Below, piece by piece: positions 3,003-10,932 of a stretch of DNA of 28,511 nucleotides. Within the stretch, counting starts at the first letter, position 1. Each line of letters begins with the position of its first letter. The notes under the pieces are model-generated. The model saw only the letters and a list, made by a program, of their open reading frames with translations, had not been told where the DNA came from and made no database searches. Where the stretch lies: IMG/VR virus record IMGVR_UViG_3300047462_000720, positions 1 to 28,511 of that record. The stretch is one strand, 5' to 3'. Made by a program: the position numbers and the translations under genes. Source of the stretch: a virus.

Positions 3003-5126
3003 TCATTCGAGCAACCCTTTCCGACGCAGTTCCTGAATGATATCCGGCGCGACCGGTTCGCGTGGCTCCAATTGCGGTCTTAGAAGCCTGACGATCTGCT
3101 GTTCGAAAGGCACGTCCTCAGTCTCCCATGGCGGCTTGGCGCGCCGCTCCTCCGGCGTCATGTTCAGCCGCTTCTCGACATTTCGAGCCTCGACTTCACC
3201 GGCTAACCTCTCATAGAGGCCGACCCGAGCTTCGCTTGGATGCGTTTGGTAGACGCCAAAGATATCGTCTGGATTGTCTTCTAGCTCCTGATAGAGGCGT
3301 GCTCGCTCGCCAGCGACCTGCTCGGGCGTGAACAGCTCGGGACTGCCGCCAGGGGTGAAGCCTTCGCGCATTTGCACAGCGTGCTGAAGCTCATGCGCCA
3401 GTGTGGATTTGGCATCAGCCGGTGACCGGCCCTTTGCCCGGATGTAACCCGTGCGCATGACCGGGTGCATTGTGTCCGGGTCAAAATCGCGAGCGGCCTG
3501 GACGTAGGCACCTTCATTGCTCGGCCCTATCGACCCCTGAATTCGCTCCGGAAATTCATAGGCTCGCTTCAACATAGGGTGCGCGAAAGCGCTAAAAGTC
3601 GTGGGCCGGTAACCCTTTGGGTTCTCGTTGACTCTGCGCAGGTCCAATTTGTCATCTGGGATTTCGAAACGCCATCGCCCGTCAATGCCACGAAACCATC
3701 CTGTCTCACGCCAGATATCATCACGGGTGCGGCCGGCCGCTTCAAGCTCCTTGGCTCGGTCCATCGCTTTGAGATCGGCCGATCGAGCGCGAGGCCCGGC
3801 GAATATGTAGGCGGGACCCGAAGCATTTTCCCTTACAATTTGCTTTTCAAATGGATGGCTTTGCGTTTCCCATGGTGGTGTCTCCCGGCGTTCGTCCGGC
3901 GTCATGTCGCGGCGCGTTTGCACGTTGCGGGCTTCGACTTCCGCCGCGTTCCGGCGATAGCGATTGAAGGCAATTCCGTCTACCCAGGACGATGGCATGA
4001 AACGGCCAAGAGTTGTGTCTTCGAGGCGTTCGGCTTCTTGATACGGACTAAGCGGCGTTGCGAAGCCTTCACGTTGCTGAATGGCGTGCTGAAATTCGTG
4101 CAAGCTAACGCTTCTAGGGTCTATCGTTTCGGGCGCGTCCGCCCTCACTGCAAGATGTCTACTCTCAGGATCATACGCACCCCCTGGGATTATTTCGCCC
4201 GGTCCATAATTTGCCGGGTTCGGCCGGAAATATTCGAGCTTGCTTTCCCTTAATTCGGGGTAGGCATTGAACAGCTCGGGATGGTCAAGAAATTCCGACG
4301 CTTGCCCAACGCGGGCTTTACCAAGCGGTACACTCTGCCAGTCCGGGCCTTTCCATATCGCTCCATTATCGGGGATTTCGAAACGCCATTTCTGATCAAG
4401 CGGATGCTGAAACCAGCCGGTTTCTTTGAAAATGGTATCCGCGTCATGCCCGGCAGCCTGCATCGATTTCGCGGCGTTCAGCTTGTCAAGGTTCGCGGTT
4501 TTGGCGGATGGCCCCGCCAACATGCCGACTGCTGGTGCCACATTTTCGAGATAGTTTTGCGCTGACGGCGATGGTTTTCCGGCAAATGGATTTATGAGCT
4601 GGTTTACGACTTCGACGCCTGTCCCAATAGGATTTGAACGGGATGGCGCTGGGGTAGCATTATCTCCTTGCTGTTTTCGTACACGGTCAAGCCCCTCTTG
4701 CAGCGAAAAGGGAACGTCAATCAGAGGGTTCAAGCGAGGAACTTCCGAGAACGCGTTATAAAGCCGCTTCGAACTCTCCGGTGCATAGCCTTCCCATTGC
4801 CGATTTTCCCAGTCCGAAACAGAGTTGGCTGCACCAAGGATGCCCTGTTTGAGGTAATCCGCTGCTGGCGATTTTAATCCTGTTCCGCCTTGAGGGGATG
4901 GCATGCCGGTCGGATCGAGGCCTTCATAAGTGTCGTAAGCCGCCATCGGCAGGGCTGGAATGGGGTTTACCCTTAGGCCCTGCTCTCCGGAGTCTGAAAA
5001 CGAGTTGATGAGGTTAGCCGCTCTGCGCTTCCACGCGTCCAAGCTGAGCATGCCGCCGTCTGGCGTACCATTCGTGTATTGGTCTTCGAACGGGTCATGA
5101 TCGACCTGAGCGGTTTGGTCGGTCAT
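3003..5126 (-). CDS. Phage polyvalent-type protein with two tandem HExxH zincin-like domains
   Basis: This is a 707-aa protein. The N-terminal 200 residues are a Pro/Gly-rich virion-like region. Two homologous units follow (about 212-432 and 450-682). Each starts with ETGWF and WRFEIPD, carries a zinc-metallopeptidase motif (HEFQH at 343-347; HELQH at 578-582) followed by REGF, and ends with EVEARNV, an MTP(D/E)ERR segment, PPWET and a QIVR segment. The Glu residues of EVEARN are candidates for the third zinc ligand. The architecture resembles zincin-like domains of the large polyvalent proteins of phages and conjugative elements. The ATG at 5126 overlaps the stop of the preceding gene (ATGA), so translation is coupled. 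A packaged peptidase or processing enzyme is plausible; the substrate is unknown. Confidence 0.65.
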   Translation of the reverse strand: MTDQTAQVDHDPFEDQYTNGTPDGGMLSLDAWKRRAANLINSFSDSGEQGLRVNPIPALPMAAYDTYEGLDPTGMPSPQGGTGLKSPAADYLKQGILGAANSVSDWENRQWEGYAPESSKRLYNAFSEVPRLNPLIDVPFSLQEGLDRVRKQQGDNATPAPSRSNPIGTGVEVVNQLINPFAGKPSPSAQNYLENVAPAVGMLAGPSAKTANLDKLNAAKSMQAAGHDADTIFKETGWFQHPLDQKWRFEIPDNGAIWKGPDWQSVPLGKARVGQASEFLDHPELFNAYPELRESKLEYFRPNPANYGPGEIIPGGAYDPESRHLAVRADAPETIDPRSVSLHEFQHAIQQREGFATPLSPYQEAERLEDTTLGRFMPSSWVDGIAFNRYRRNAAEVEARNVQTRRDMTPDERRETPPWETQSHPFEKQIVRENASGPAYIFAGPRARSADLKAMDRAKELEAAGRTRDDIWRETGWFRGIDGRWRFEIPDDKLDLRRVNENPKGYRPTTFSAFAHPMLKRAYEFPERIQGSIGPSNEGAYVQAARDFDPDTMHPVMRTGYIRAKGRSPADAKSTLAHELQHAVQMREGFTPGGSPELFTPEQVAGERARLYQELEDNPDDIFGVYQTHPSEARVGLYERLAGEVEARNVEKRLNMTPEERRAKPPWETEDVPFEQQIVRLLRPQLEPREPVAPDIIQELRRKGLLE

Positions 5127-8177: not shown

Positions 8178-8185
8178 TTTGAGAA
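8178..8185. repeat. Target-site duplication of the IS, left copy
   Basis: TTTGAGAA directly precedes the left terminal repeat; the identical octamer follows the right terminal repeat at 10087-10094. An 8-bp duplication is the size expected for the IS1595 family. Confidence 0.95.
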
Positions 8186-8210
8186 CCCTTGTATCGGGTT
8201 GACATACGTA
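8186..8210 (+). repeat. Left terminal inverted repeat of the IS
   Basis: The 25-bp sequence is the exact reverse complement of 10062-10086. It contains the -35 hexamer of the transposase promoter. Confidence 0.95.
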
Positions 8211-8227
8211 CCGGCCTGAACTATATT
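8199..8227 (+). promoter_or_regulatory. Transposase promoter
   Basis: TTGACA (8199-8204, inside the left terminal repeat) and TATATT (8222-8227) are separated by 17 bp, a near-consensus sigma-70 promoter. It lies about 23 bp before the preferred transposase start at 8250. Confidence 0.75.
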
Positions 8228-8249
8228 AACAGGCATGGAGGACATACCC

Positions 8250-9110
8250 ATGTCTAAGATCACAACGGTAAAGCAGTTCCTGGAGCAGTTTCCCGATGAT
8301 GATGCCTGCTTGGCGCATCTGATGGAGACCCGTTTCGGCTCGGAACTTGACTGCCCGAAGTGCGGCAAGCACGGCAAGTTTCACCGCATCCGCAGTGAGC
8401 GCGCTTTCGGCTGCCAGTGGTGCGGCCATCACATTCACCCAAGCGTTGGAACGCCCTTCCACCGCAGTCATACGCCGCTGCACAGTTGGTACTATGTCAT
8501 GTACCTGTTCAGCGTCACGCGCCACGGCGTGTCCGGTAAGGAAATTCAGCGCCAGCTCGGTTGCTCGTATGAGACGGCTTGGCGCATGGGCCATGAAATC
8601 CGCAAGTACCTCGGGCAGATCGACGGCAACGGCCCGCTTGATGGCGATGTTGAAGCCGATGAGGCTTATGTTGGCGGCGCGCGTCCCGGCAAGCGCGGCC
8701 GCGGCGCTGGCGGCAAGGCAGTTGTCTTCGCGATGCAGGACCGCGATGGCGAAATGATTGCCAAGGTCGTTCCGAACGCCCAAGGCGAAACGCTTAAGGG
8801 CGAAATCGAAGCGCATGTAGTTAAAGGGTCTACCATTCATACCGACGAATGGAGCGCTTATCGTGGGCTTGATAAGAAGGGTTACACGCACAGCACAGTT
8901 GACCATGGAAAGAAGGAATACGCCCGCAACGGAAGCCATGTGAATACCGTCGAAGCGTTCTTTGGCATCTTCAAGCGCTCGATCCGGTCCACCCACGTCG
9001 CGATTAGCCAGAAACATTTGCCTAAGTATCTGATGGAGTTTGAGTTTCGTCAGAACCTTCGGAAGGTTCCGCATCTGATGTTTCTTCGGATGATTGCTTT
9101 CCCGTTATAA
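8250..9110 (+). CDS. IS1595-family transposase
   Basis: This 286-aa protein cuts and joins the IS ends. Near residues 35-70 there is a zinc ribbon (CPKCGKHGKFH then GCQWCGHHIHP), as in Zn-ribbon IS1595 transposases. The DDE-type domain follows with DEAYVGG, then HTDEWSAY and HVNTVEAFFGIFKRS for the acidic residues. The C-terminus (KYLMEFEFRQN) matches the usual end of the family, so the protein looks complete. I chose ATG 8250 because GGAGG lies 8 nt upstream; an ATG at 8235 would add five residues. The last 89 nt overlap the convergent passenger gene at 9022-9231. Confidence 0.93.
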   Translation: MSKITTVKQFLEQFPDDDACLAHLMETRFGSELDCPKCGKHGKFHRIRSERAFGCQWCGHHIHPSVGTPFHRSHTPLHSWYYVMYLFSVTRHGVSGKEIQRQLGCSYETAWRMGHEIRKYLGQIDGNGPLDGDVEADEAYVGGARPGKRGRGAGGKAVVFAMQDRDGEMIAKVVPNAQGETLKGEIEAHVVKGSTIHTDEWSAYRGLDKKGYTHSTVDHGKKEYARNGSHVNTVEAFFGIFKRSIRSTHVAISQKHLPKYLMEFEFRQNLRKVPHLMFLRMIAFPL

Positions 9111-9231
9111 GGGAAAGCAATCGCCAGAAGCGGGATTCGCCTTCGGGGTGCGGATCTTTTGGCTCGTGCTCGGCGGCAAACTCTTCAAGCTTGCCTTCTC
9201 TAATCGCTTGCTTGAGGTTCAATGTTGCCAT
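9022..9231 (-). CDS. IS passenger gene: small acidic protein
   Basis: This 69-aa protein begins MATLNLKQAIREGKLEEF and ends in a Ser/Glu/Asp/Thr-rich tail (SSEETSDAEPSEGSDE). A strong ribosome-binding site (GGGAGTAGGA) precedes the ATG at 9231. It starts 3 nt after the stop of the membrane-protein gene upstream and is probably cotranscribed with it. Its 3' end overlaps the transposase 3' end by 89 nt on the opposite strand. No function known; it is part of the IS cargo by position. Confidence 0.65.
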   Translation of the reverse strand: MATLNLKQAIREGKLEEFAAEHEPKDPHPEGESRFWRLLSLITGKQSSEETSDAEPSEGSDETQTPSDT

Positions 9232-9234
9232 TTC

Positions 9235-9741
9235 CTACTCCCTCTTTTCGCGGGAGGGAGATTGGTCAAGCTGTCGCCTTAACAGTTCCAATATCAACCC
9301 AAATTGCTTGGCGTTTTCTTCTTGCTGTCGCCTAATCTCAAGCACCTGCTTAGCATTCTCGTCATTTAACCGCTTGTTCTCAAGCGTCTGTCCAACAATG
9401 CCGCCAGCAAATTGAGTTCCGCTGTCAAACCTTGCGCTTCCCAAAGCAATAATACCAATAGCAACGCCTATTATTGCGATTGCTGTTACAGCAAGAGAAC
9501 CAATTAATTGACCAAGCGTTGGAAGATTACCTAGTTTTGCATCTATCCGACTCTCAAGTGTATCAATTTTACTGTCTGTTCTCTTTTCCGACGCCTCTAT
9601 CATGGTGTTCATCCAATGATAAAGAGCTGGATCGATTGCGCTGTTCCCGCCGACCCCTGTTTGGGGAGTAATGATATTGGAAAGCGCTGCGTCTGCCGCT
9701 TCATCAGGCGGCGTTGGGTCCTTAGACCTGCCCCTAGCCAT
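9235..9741 (-). CDS. IS passenger gene: membrane-anchored coiled-coil protein
   Basis: This 168-aa protein has a polar N-terminus, then a heptad-rich segment (SEKRTDSKIDTLESRIDAKL). One long hydrophobic segment follows (LIGSLAVTAIAIIGVAIGII, about residues 83-102), and then a second charged coil (NDENAKQVLEIRRQQEENAK) to the end. It looks like a single-span inner-membrane protein with coils on both sides. The start ATG overlaps the end of the 9734-10012 gene by 8 nt. It is the middle gene of the three-gene cargo operon in the IS. No named family. Confidence 0.65.
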   Translation of the reverse strand: MARGRSKDPTPPDEAADAALSNIITPQTGVGGNSAIDPALYHWMNTMIEASEKRTDSKIDTLESRIDAKLGNLPTLGQLIGSLAVTAIAIIGVAIGIIALGSARFDSGTQFAGGIVGQTLENKRLNDENAKQVLEIRRQQEENAKQFGLILELLRRQLDQSPSREKRE

Positions 9742-10012
9742 TGGACTGGCTCTTTGCGATTTGAGCCAAAAATGACTCTTCCACCGGCTTGAGCATTACA
9801 CTCAAGAGGTTCTTCAATTCGATCGCGTCTTGATAACTTAAGAGGATCGCTGTTCTGAACTCGGAGGCCGCTTCCGGTGCACGGCGCTCCAAGAGCCCAA
9901 TTCTCACACCGGATGGGTGAAAGGTAACTATAAACCTGTTCACAAGCGTTGCTGGTCCAGAAAACGACACTTCTAAGTCTGGATCGAGCGTCGTACTTTT
10001 GTCCTCTGCCAC
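9734..10012 (-). CDS. IS passenger gene: small soluble protein, DUF3467-like pattern
   Basis: This 92-aa protein starts at GTG (10010-10012) with AAGGGAG about 8 nt upstream. The pattern NRFIVTFHPSGVRIGLLE, followed by AILLSYQDAIELKNLLSVML and PVEESF, resembles the two-strand-plus-helix layout of DUF3467 proteins; this is a resemblance, not a confirmed match. It is the first gene of the passenger operon, reading inward from the right end of the IS. Function unknown. Confidence 0.6.
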   Translation of the reverse strand: MAEDKSTTLDPDLEVSFSGPATLVNRFIVTFHPSGVRIGLLERRAPEAASEFRTAILLSYQDAIELKNLLSVMLKPVEESFLAQIAKSQSNG

Positions 10013-10061
10013 AAGGTCGCTCCCTTTGATTGGTAAGGAGCGAGGGATCGCACATATCCCA

Positions 10062-10086
10062 TACGTATGTCAACCCGATACAAGGG
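10062..10086 (-). repeat. Right terminal inverted repeat of the IS
   Basis: Exact reverse complement of 8186-8210 over 25 bp. A TTGACA hexamer here faces inward on the minus strand and might serve the passenger operon, but I see no convincing -10 at the right distance. Confidence 0.95.
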
Positions 10087-10094
10087 TTTGAGAA
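10087..10094. repeat. Target-site duplication of the IS, right copy
   Basis: TTTGAGAA, identical to 8178-8185, abuts the right terminal repeat. Confidence 0.95.
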
Positions 10095-10099
10095 TTCGC

Positions 10100-10279
10100 A
10101 TGAGAAAGAAGCTTCCCAAACACTTGGGGTACGTTCCCGAGACGATCGACGGCGTGAGTAATCTCATGGTGAACCTCTCCGCCGATGGTGGGGCCGAGAT
10201 CGGGAGACGCATCGAAGCGCGTAAGAATCACGCTGCTATCGCCGTGGGCCACGCCAAAGCCAAGGCCTCATCGTCCTGA
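10100..10279 (+). CDS. Small basic hypothetical protein, separated from its upstream region by the IS
   Basis: From ATG 10100 the frame gives 59 residues beginning MRKKLPKHLGYVPETIDG, with a basic, Ala/Lys-rich end. The open frame extends back into the IS terminal repeat, but that part belongs to the insertion. Before insertion the start was directly preceded by TTTGAGAATTCGC, where GAGAA may be the ribosome-binding site, and by an ATCTG-N3-CAGAT dyad about 59 bp upstream. The IS has probably removed it from its native promoter. No family recognised. Confidence 0.5.
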   Translation: MRKKLPKHLGYVPETIDGVSNLMVNLSADGGAEIGRRIEARKNHAAIAVGHAKAKASSS

Positions 10280-10338: not shown

Positions 10339-10932
10339 TCATTCCTCGTCGTCATTCAGATGCTTCAAGAACTTAGCTAGATCGTCGCCCTTGAGCGTGC
10401 TTTTCGCAATATCGTTCCAAATCGTCTTGGCATCGTGGCGAGAGATGATCTGTTCATCGGTGGATCGCAGGTGAAATACCAAGTCATAGGGGTTGGTGAT
10501 ATTCCGGCTCGTCGATGTCCAGGCGAAGACTGTGAACGTCTTTAGATTGGGGTCGAACACGGTGGGAATGGGGCTGATGGCATTGTTCTTCGAAGATTTC
10601 TTGCTGCCGGCGCGAATGGCGGCGAGCGTCTGATCGATCCGGCCCTTATCACCTTGCAGGCTTACCTCCACGGTTCCGTCCGGATTATTCCGAGCGAAAC
10701 CGGCGAGATTGTACATGATCGCCTCCTTTTGGATCATGGCTCGGAAGCCGACCTTCTGAAGGTTCGCGCCGCGTACACTGCCTTTAAAGGCTTGTTGCTG
10801 CGCACTGGCGTCGCCTGCGGCCAAGATGGCGCCTCCACTTGAAAGAACTGCGGCAAGCAGCAGGGCAAAACGATATCCGGCCCGTTTCCAGACCCTTACT
10901 CGACTTGGATTAAAAAACCAGGGCAATGTCAC
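10339..10932 (-). CDS. Exported acylphosphatase-like protein
   Basis: This 197-aa protein has a Sec signal peptide: Arg/Lys start, hydrophobic core FALLLAAVLSSGGAILAAG, predicted cleavage after ASA near residue 44. The mature N-terminal half matches the acylphosphatase fold: GANLQKVGFR (Arg64), then NLAGFARNNPDGTVEVSLQG with the family Asn at residue 82. Acylphosphatases hydrolyse carboxyl-phosphate bonds and are usually cytosolic and about 90 aa. Here the phosphate-binding loop is one residue longer, reads QK where QG is usual, and an extra C-terminal region of about 80 residues follows. Activity is therefore uncertain. The start is GTG; the gene follows the metallophosphoesterase by 17 nt, probably one operon. 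Confidence 0.75.
   Translation of the reverse strand: MTLPWFFNPSRVRVWKRAGYRFALLLAAVLSSGGAILAAGDASAQQQAFKGSVRGANLQKVGFRAMIQKEAIMYNLAGFARNNPDGTVEVSLQGDKGRIDQTLAAIRAGSKKSSKNNAISPIPTVFDPNLKTFTVFAWTSTSRNITNPYDLVFHLRSTDEQIISRHDAKTIWNDIAKSTLKGDDLAKFLKHLNDDEE

Follow-up and report, generated by a model that had tools for sequence, protein, structure and literature searches.

An IS1595 subgroup that appears to combine a constant two-gene chassis with an exchangeable cargo cassette

We describe an intact insertion sequence (IS) whose IS1595 subgroup very probably acts, as judged from sequence comparison, as a standard cargo carrier in which a constant chassis, made of the transposase and one small gene, is joined to an exchangeable cassette. 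Insertion sequences are usually regarded as transposase-only parasites and their passengers as oddities. In this subgroup, cargo appears to be obligatory, is attached at a standard junction and is drawn from an open-ended pool. The element lies in a window of 28,511 nucleotides (the whole stretch of DNA analysed, from IMG/VR virus record IMGVR_UViG_3300047462_000720) which looks like a prophage from its large terminase, replicative helicase and integrase frames (recognised by eye, with homology for the terminase). Apparent host sugar-nucleotide genes are seen at the right side of the window.

The element spans positions 8186 to 10086 (1901 bp). A first-pass annotation of this DNA had described perfect 25-bp terminal inverted repeats, a perfect 8-bp target duplication, an intact zinc-ribbon/DDE transposase and three open genes on the opposite strand, and all of these were confirmed: the repeats (CCCTTGTATCGGGTTGACATACGTA) are identical at 25/25 bp and the duplication (TTTGAGAA) at 8/8 bp on both flanks. 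By chance, 28.5 kb would contain about 4e-7 exact inverted pairs of 25 bp, the target duplication not yet being counted. The features of the element are as follows.

8178-8185, no strand: left copy of the target duplication TTTGAGAA (sequence).
8186-8210, plus strand: left terminal inverted repeat, 25 bp, with the family core TATC...TTGACATACGT (sequence, relatives).
8199-8227, plus strand: transposase promoter, with TTGACA at 8199-8204 (within the terminal repeat), 17 bp, then TATATT at 8222-8227 (sequence).
8235-9110, plus strand: IS1595-family transposase, zinc ribbon and DDE domain, likelier start ATG 8250 (Pfam).
9022-9231, minus strand: gene for a small helical protein of 69 aa, apparent second core gene (all 78 delimited elements, purifying selection, linkage to the transposase).
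9084-9130, no strand: hairpin spanning the transposase stop codon, possible two-way terminator (20-nt arms, 85% complementary, z -4.9).
9235-9741, minus strand: cargo gene 2, 168 aa, coil, single membrane span, coil (sequence; distant non-IS homologues L113 and L114).
9734-10012, minus strand: cargo gene 1, 92-aa soluble protein, GTG start, predicted four strands and one helix (sequence, model).
10062-10086, minus strand: right terminal inverted repeat, 25 bp, same as the left one (sequence).
10087-10094, no strand: right copy of the target duplication TTTGAGAA (sequence).

The transposase matched PF12762 (DDE_Tnp_IS1595) at 8.8e-45 over positions 2-153 of the 153 of the profile, and its N-terminal zinc ribbon matched PF12760 at 8.9e-10; the element thus unites the DDE domain, zinc ribbon, 8-bp duplication and terminal inverted repeats expected of IS1595. 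Siguier, Gagnevin and Chandler reportedly distinguished in 2009 the IS1595 groups ISPna2, ISH4, IS1016, IS1595, ISSod11, ISNwi and ISNha5. Translation more likely begins at ATG 8250, with GGAGGA at 8237-8242. A -35 hexamer conserved at 5/6 positions or more is found at the left end of 69/76 distinct elements of the group and at the right end of 13/76, and the transposase would be driven from the TTGACA of the left end. The window element keeps TTGACA in both ends, the right end having mostly lost it across relatives. The three minus-strand frames converge on the transposase, with an 8-bp overlap between cargo genes 1 and 2 and a 3-bp gap between the 168-aa and 69-aa genes, and the 3' ends of the 69-aa gene and the transposase overlap antisense by 89 bp. 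The hairpin at the transposase stop, strong in the window, is possibly a two-way terminator between these convergent genes. It was not retained as a universal feature, the signal being modest across the family (mean z -0.8; 14% below -2 versus 3% in control windows). A short phage gene (ATG 10100; window 10087-10279) starts a few bases downstream of the IS, and the insertion probably cuts it off from its promoter. Further on, positions 10339-10932 encode a predicted exported protein with an acylphosphatase domain match (9.4e-15), an unusual gene for a phage.

The first relatives were collected by a single scan with the transposase only, requiring exact 8-residue matches, which yielded 87 loci, 80 of them in genomes and 7 viral, with transposases 43-61% identical. 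Elements were delimited by both ends and the 8-bp duplication, which was possible at most of these loci, and a search with the small gene added further ones, giving 78 delimited elements (76 distinct) of 1564-3010 bp. All delimited members share one layout: left end, transposase, convergent small gene, cargo cassette and right end. Besides the transposase and the small gene, a cargo ORF of at least 80 aa is present in 78/78 elements, and a bare transposase in none. The elements reside in chromosomes or prophages, and most hosts have a single copy; in the plasmid collection, only two records contain the transposase of this IS group. A search of viral contigs for an empty-site junction and for the exact end sequence found neither. 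One genome holds two identical complete copies of 2434 bp (L100 and L101) flanked by different duplications, TCGAGAAA and TAGAGTTA, which indicates that chassis and cargo transpose as one unit.

By its distribution, the 69-aa gene is a second core gene of the IS group and not cargo. The first-pass annotation had proposed a three-gene passenger operon; an IS1595-family element with cargo is indeed present, this cargo consisting of genes one and two, and the third gene is part of the chassis, since it occurs in all 78 delimited relatives. Of the 87 loci of the first scan, 85 contain it (77 matches at E<1e-6, the others weak and correctly placed), and in the two remaining loci the contig ends at or inside the transposase. 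In 44 whole genomes, all 45 small-gene matches adjoin a window-type transposase. Of 385 alphaproteobacterial genomes, chosen irrespective of cargo, 20 contain the small gene, and when 20 small-gene loci were fetched (18 from this draw and 2 extra) the transposase was adjacent in 19. The exception, L094 (2962-3806), is a remnant which has the right end, intact cargo and the small gene and has lost the transposase; the small gene is therefore not purely a transposition gene. Save for this remnant, it appears to be exclusive to the window-type transposase. The divergence of the two genes is also correlated (Mantel r 0.74; best of 999 permutations 0.09).

The 3' third of the small gene is antisense to the transposase (median overlap 71 bp), and conservation in the corresponding C-terminal part of the protein is not apportionable between the two genes. 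Outside this overlap, pN was below pS in 463/463 pairs, with a pooled pN/pS of about 0.34 and, in the closest pairs, a pN of 0.05 versus a pS of 0.60, which clearly points to purifying selection at the sequence level. The protein family is helical and about 60 aa long (pLDDT 68 for the window model). Pfam holds no family for it, and a PDB sequence search with its profile gave as best match only 21 residues of an unrelated chain. The window protein, earlier called small and acidic, does carry a net charge of about -9, but acidity was rejected as a family trait (of 78 proteins, 35 have a negative and 41 a positive net charge).

The junction between cargo and small gene is standard as well. In 59/78 elements the cargo stop lies within -30 to +20 nt of the small-gene start, with overlap peaks at 14, 4 and 1 nt, so the coupling is kept whatever the cargo. 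As required of type II toxin-antitoxin pairs, the two genes overlap or abut at this junction.

The cassette itself changes from one element to another. Considering pairs with homologous chassis (left parts aligned over more than 800 bp), cargo is unrelated in 197 of 203, and in these 197 the left block of homology ends at or before the small-gene start, never overshooting it by more than about 20 bp. DNA homology does not return until the right terminal repeat, over a block with a median of 25 bp, and cassettes differ even where the chassis DNA is 72-89% identical. The strand opposite the transposase carries 95 of the 105 cargo ORFs (95:10). The 76 distinct elements provide about 72 cargo families, 59 of them singletons, and the Chao1 estimate of about 357 families is rough; some families could prove to be remotely homologous and merge, and a small number of singletons may not be genuine ORFs. 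Families with several members are scattered on the transposase tree, requiring 3-7 changes, nearly one per member: the 8 elements of ImmA type need 7 changes and the three-member families 3 each. Membrane spans are predicted in 52/90 cargo proteins versus 77/314 neighbouring genes. ImmA/IrrE peptidases occur in 8 elements, always with a membrane partner; the other recognisable cargo includes PDC-S42-like (best 1e-52), trypsin-like, retropepsin-like, Fic/Doc and PemK/MazF proteins, and many cargo genes encode membrane-anchored proteins of unknown function. Five elements (L009, L031, L048, L070 and L091) have extra genes between the transposase and the small gene (trypsin-like, retropepsin-like, PemK/MazF, Fic/Doc), which form a second cargo site. 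The first-pass annotation had named in advance relatives with similar ends and unrelated cargo as an outcome that would count against it; such relatives were found as regards genes one and two but not gene three. Inside the shared ends it is the 69-aa gene that recurs (78/78), the two upstream genes being exchanged.

We propose that cassettes would be captured from chromosomes and, judging from the breakpoints, reshuffled among elements by recombination in the left block that they share and in the terminal repeat; it is the products of capture and exchange that were compared. In the 385 genomes, the pair formed by ImmA and its membrane protein was found in 7 loci without a transposase and once inside an element, and is thus clearly present in chromosomes as a free two-gene module. 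The cargo promoter would drive the cargo and, through translational coupling, the small protein. Because it is linked to the transposase, the small protein may modulate transposition, as a chassis accessory that restrains or coordinates it when the cargo is expressed. The cargo would persist by benefiting or addicting the host, in line with the single copy per genome in most hosts.

The main alternative would be that the small protein pairs promiscuously with the cargo, as an antitoxin, immunity protein or chaperone, the element then being an addictive unit of toxin-antitoxin type with one constant and one hypervariable member. The coupling of cargo stop and small-gene start, the L094 remnant that retains cargo and small gene intact after loss of the transposase, the occurrence of Fic/Doc and PemK/MazF among the cargo and the single copy per genome all fit this reading, and one antitoxin domain associated with many toxins has a precedent (PMC10440598). 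It is also favoured by the nearest outgroup. Among IS1595-family transposases drawn from 74 genomes, those nearest to the window group have the small gene, and the next nearest (L131 and L137, with the viral L157, L159 and L160) have no separate one. In its place these five loci encode a trypsin-like protease that resembles the small protein in its last 25 residues; this tail, NPxHxEDFxRLLxAAAxxxPxxDQT, is a weak match (E 6e-4 and 0.016) and is partly antisense to the transposase. Such a cargo protease fused to a tail like the small protein is a hint that small protein and cargo may be functionally tied. However, the cargo is chemically very diverse and many of its families are not toxin-like, the toxin-like genes of L070 (Doc) and L048 (PemK) lie between the transposase and the small gene and not upstream of the latter, and the small gene diverges together with the transposase. 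We consequently regard a cargo partner as improbable beside the chassis accessory proposed above.

Other IS1595 elements carry cargo of other kinds too. In L158, after position 4885, the sister element is apparently followed by a gene with a Panacea (SocA-like antitoxin) domain (PF13274, 2.5e-14), the ends of this element not having been found. L147, from another IS1595 group, has a 175-aa gene co-directional with that of the transposase, HEPN-like by eye, whose only Pfam match is below threshold and to a family other than HEPN.

The cargo of the window element is a pair of genes. The 168-aa protein has one hydrophobic span with a coil on each side, in agreement with its initial description as a single-span coiled-coil membrane protein. 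The 92-aa protein had been called DUF3467-like, which did not hold: it has no Pfam match at E<=1, and a direct search of the window with PF11950 gave none at E<=10, control genomes being positive; the same profile found nothing in the L113 and L114 genomes. Its model (pLDDT 66) gave only weak PUR/PC4-like matches in Foldseek (E>=0.3), and comparison with the PUR/PC4/Whirly fold by VIA gave a Z of at most 6.3, a level that common arrangements also reach. Neither cargo protein was matched in plasmids, in viral contigs or by DNA similarity, and a single match of the 92-aa protein in the 385 genomes (E 0.009) was not upheld on closer look. Outside any IS, the 168-aa protein has weak relatives of 28-29% identity in L113 (7e-6) and L114 (3e-4), which share its layout of coil, span and coil and a motif after the span. 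In both loci, the coil/membrane gene directly follows a small soluble gene of about 110 aa; the latter and the 92-aa gene are too divergent for sequence comparison to establish homology and were matched by gene order and size. The window cargo was therefore probably captured from elsewhere as a two-gene module. L085, a member of the IS group, has a similar-looking gene pair, with a weaker likeness than L113 and L114. Occurrence of the three genes mainly outside any IS had also been named in advance as contrary evidence; pairs like the window cargo are indeed free in L113 and L114, but the 69-aa gene is linked to the transposase.

As to its role, the window cargo is most likely, to judge from its predicted proteins, a membrane-anchored two-component module of stress or phage response, in which the 92-aa protein would be the soluble partner of the 168-aa protein; a role as sensor, in defence or in host interaction, as first suggested, is possible. 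Membrane-anchored coil proteins are common in defence. This background, the prophage location and PADLOC candidates in some related elements (capP-like ImmA, PDC-S42) would suit a phage-defence module brought into the prophage by the IS for inter-phage competition. We consider this specific scenario unlikely, given that the PADLOC models gave 0 matches at E<=1 for the three window proteins, that many PADLOC matches in the set stem from broad peptidase domains and that the non-IS homologue L113 sits amid metabolic genes. In L009, matches of a trypsin-like protein to the RT-protease, HamA and LmuA models probably reflect a shared domain and not defence systems.

Finally, it is very doubtful that the element is an ordinary transporter IS, with random host genes trapped between its ends and a small ORF that arises as a by-product, antisense to the 3' end of the transposase gene: passenger-carrying elements such as ISNha5 are described in IS1595 (PMC11891212) and the 3' third of the small gene is antisense to the transposase, but selection outside the overlap disfavours this explanation, the small gene is in every element and lacking from less similar IS1595 transposases, and the cargo orientation and coupling are not random.

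Since the small gene marks the chassis, it is usable as bait for listing many cargo modules, mostly of unknown function, some of which resemble toxin, protease or defence components. The carrier architecture also poses the question of why a simple IS always keeps a second gene coupled to changing cargo. As a tentative extension, these transposons of about 2 kb might form a natural cassette-exchange platform, in which the coupled constant small protein would be a universal partner (regulator or promiscuous antitoxin) and hundreds of unrelated membrane or enzyme modules, many of them defence or addiction systems not yet known, would be mobilised through one junction.

Passenger-carrying IS1595 elements are thus already known, and it is the universal small gene and the cassette architecture that appear to be new; in the open-access literature, we found no IS1595 element described as pairing a constant second gene with an exchangeable cassette. 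The subgroup shares with its family the zinc-ribbon and DDE_Tnp_IS1595 transposase, the 8-bp duplication and the terminal repeats, features summarised in PMC8101967. According to the same source, IS1595 members usually consist of a single transposase gene, whereas here a second conserved gene and cargo are present in every member. Transporter IS, including ISNha5 of IS1595 with transcription regulators, carry inside their ends genes dispensable for transposition (PMC11891212 and PMC7986276, both citing the 2009 work of Siguier and co-workers). The window element likewise has two cargo genes inside its ends, exchangeable between relatives and also found outside IS. Transporter IS have been described singly, as members of several families; here, the chassis and the junction are common to an entire subgroup, whose cargo pool is very large.

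If the small protein were a cargo partner, the Panacea (PanA) network would offer a parallel, with one constant small protein and many unrelated partners (PMC10440598), although the present protein has no Pfam match and neutralisation by it is putative. The toxin-antitoxin passengers of the Tn3 family are also exchangeable small modules at a fixed place beside the transposition genes (PMC7157771); they belong to another transposase family, and in our elements the diversity of cargo is much greater, and between cargo and transposase stands a constant small gene. Tn7-like transposons resemble the subgroup in that 96% carry cargo, enriched in defence, toxin-antitoxin and other modules (PMC8649781), but they are multi-gene transposons, whereas the carrier described here is an IS of about 2 kb with one transposase gene.
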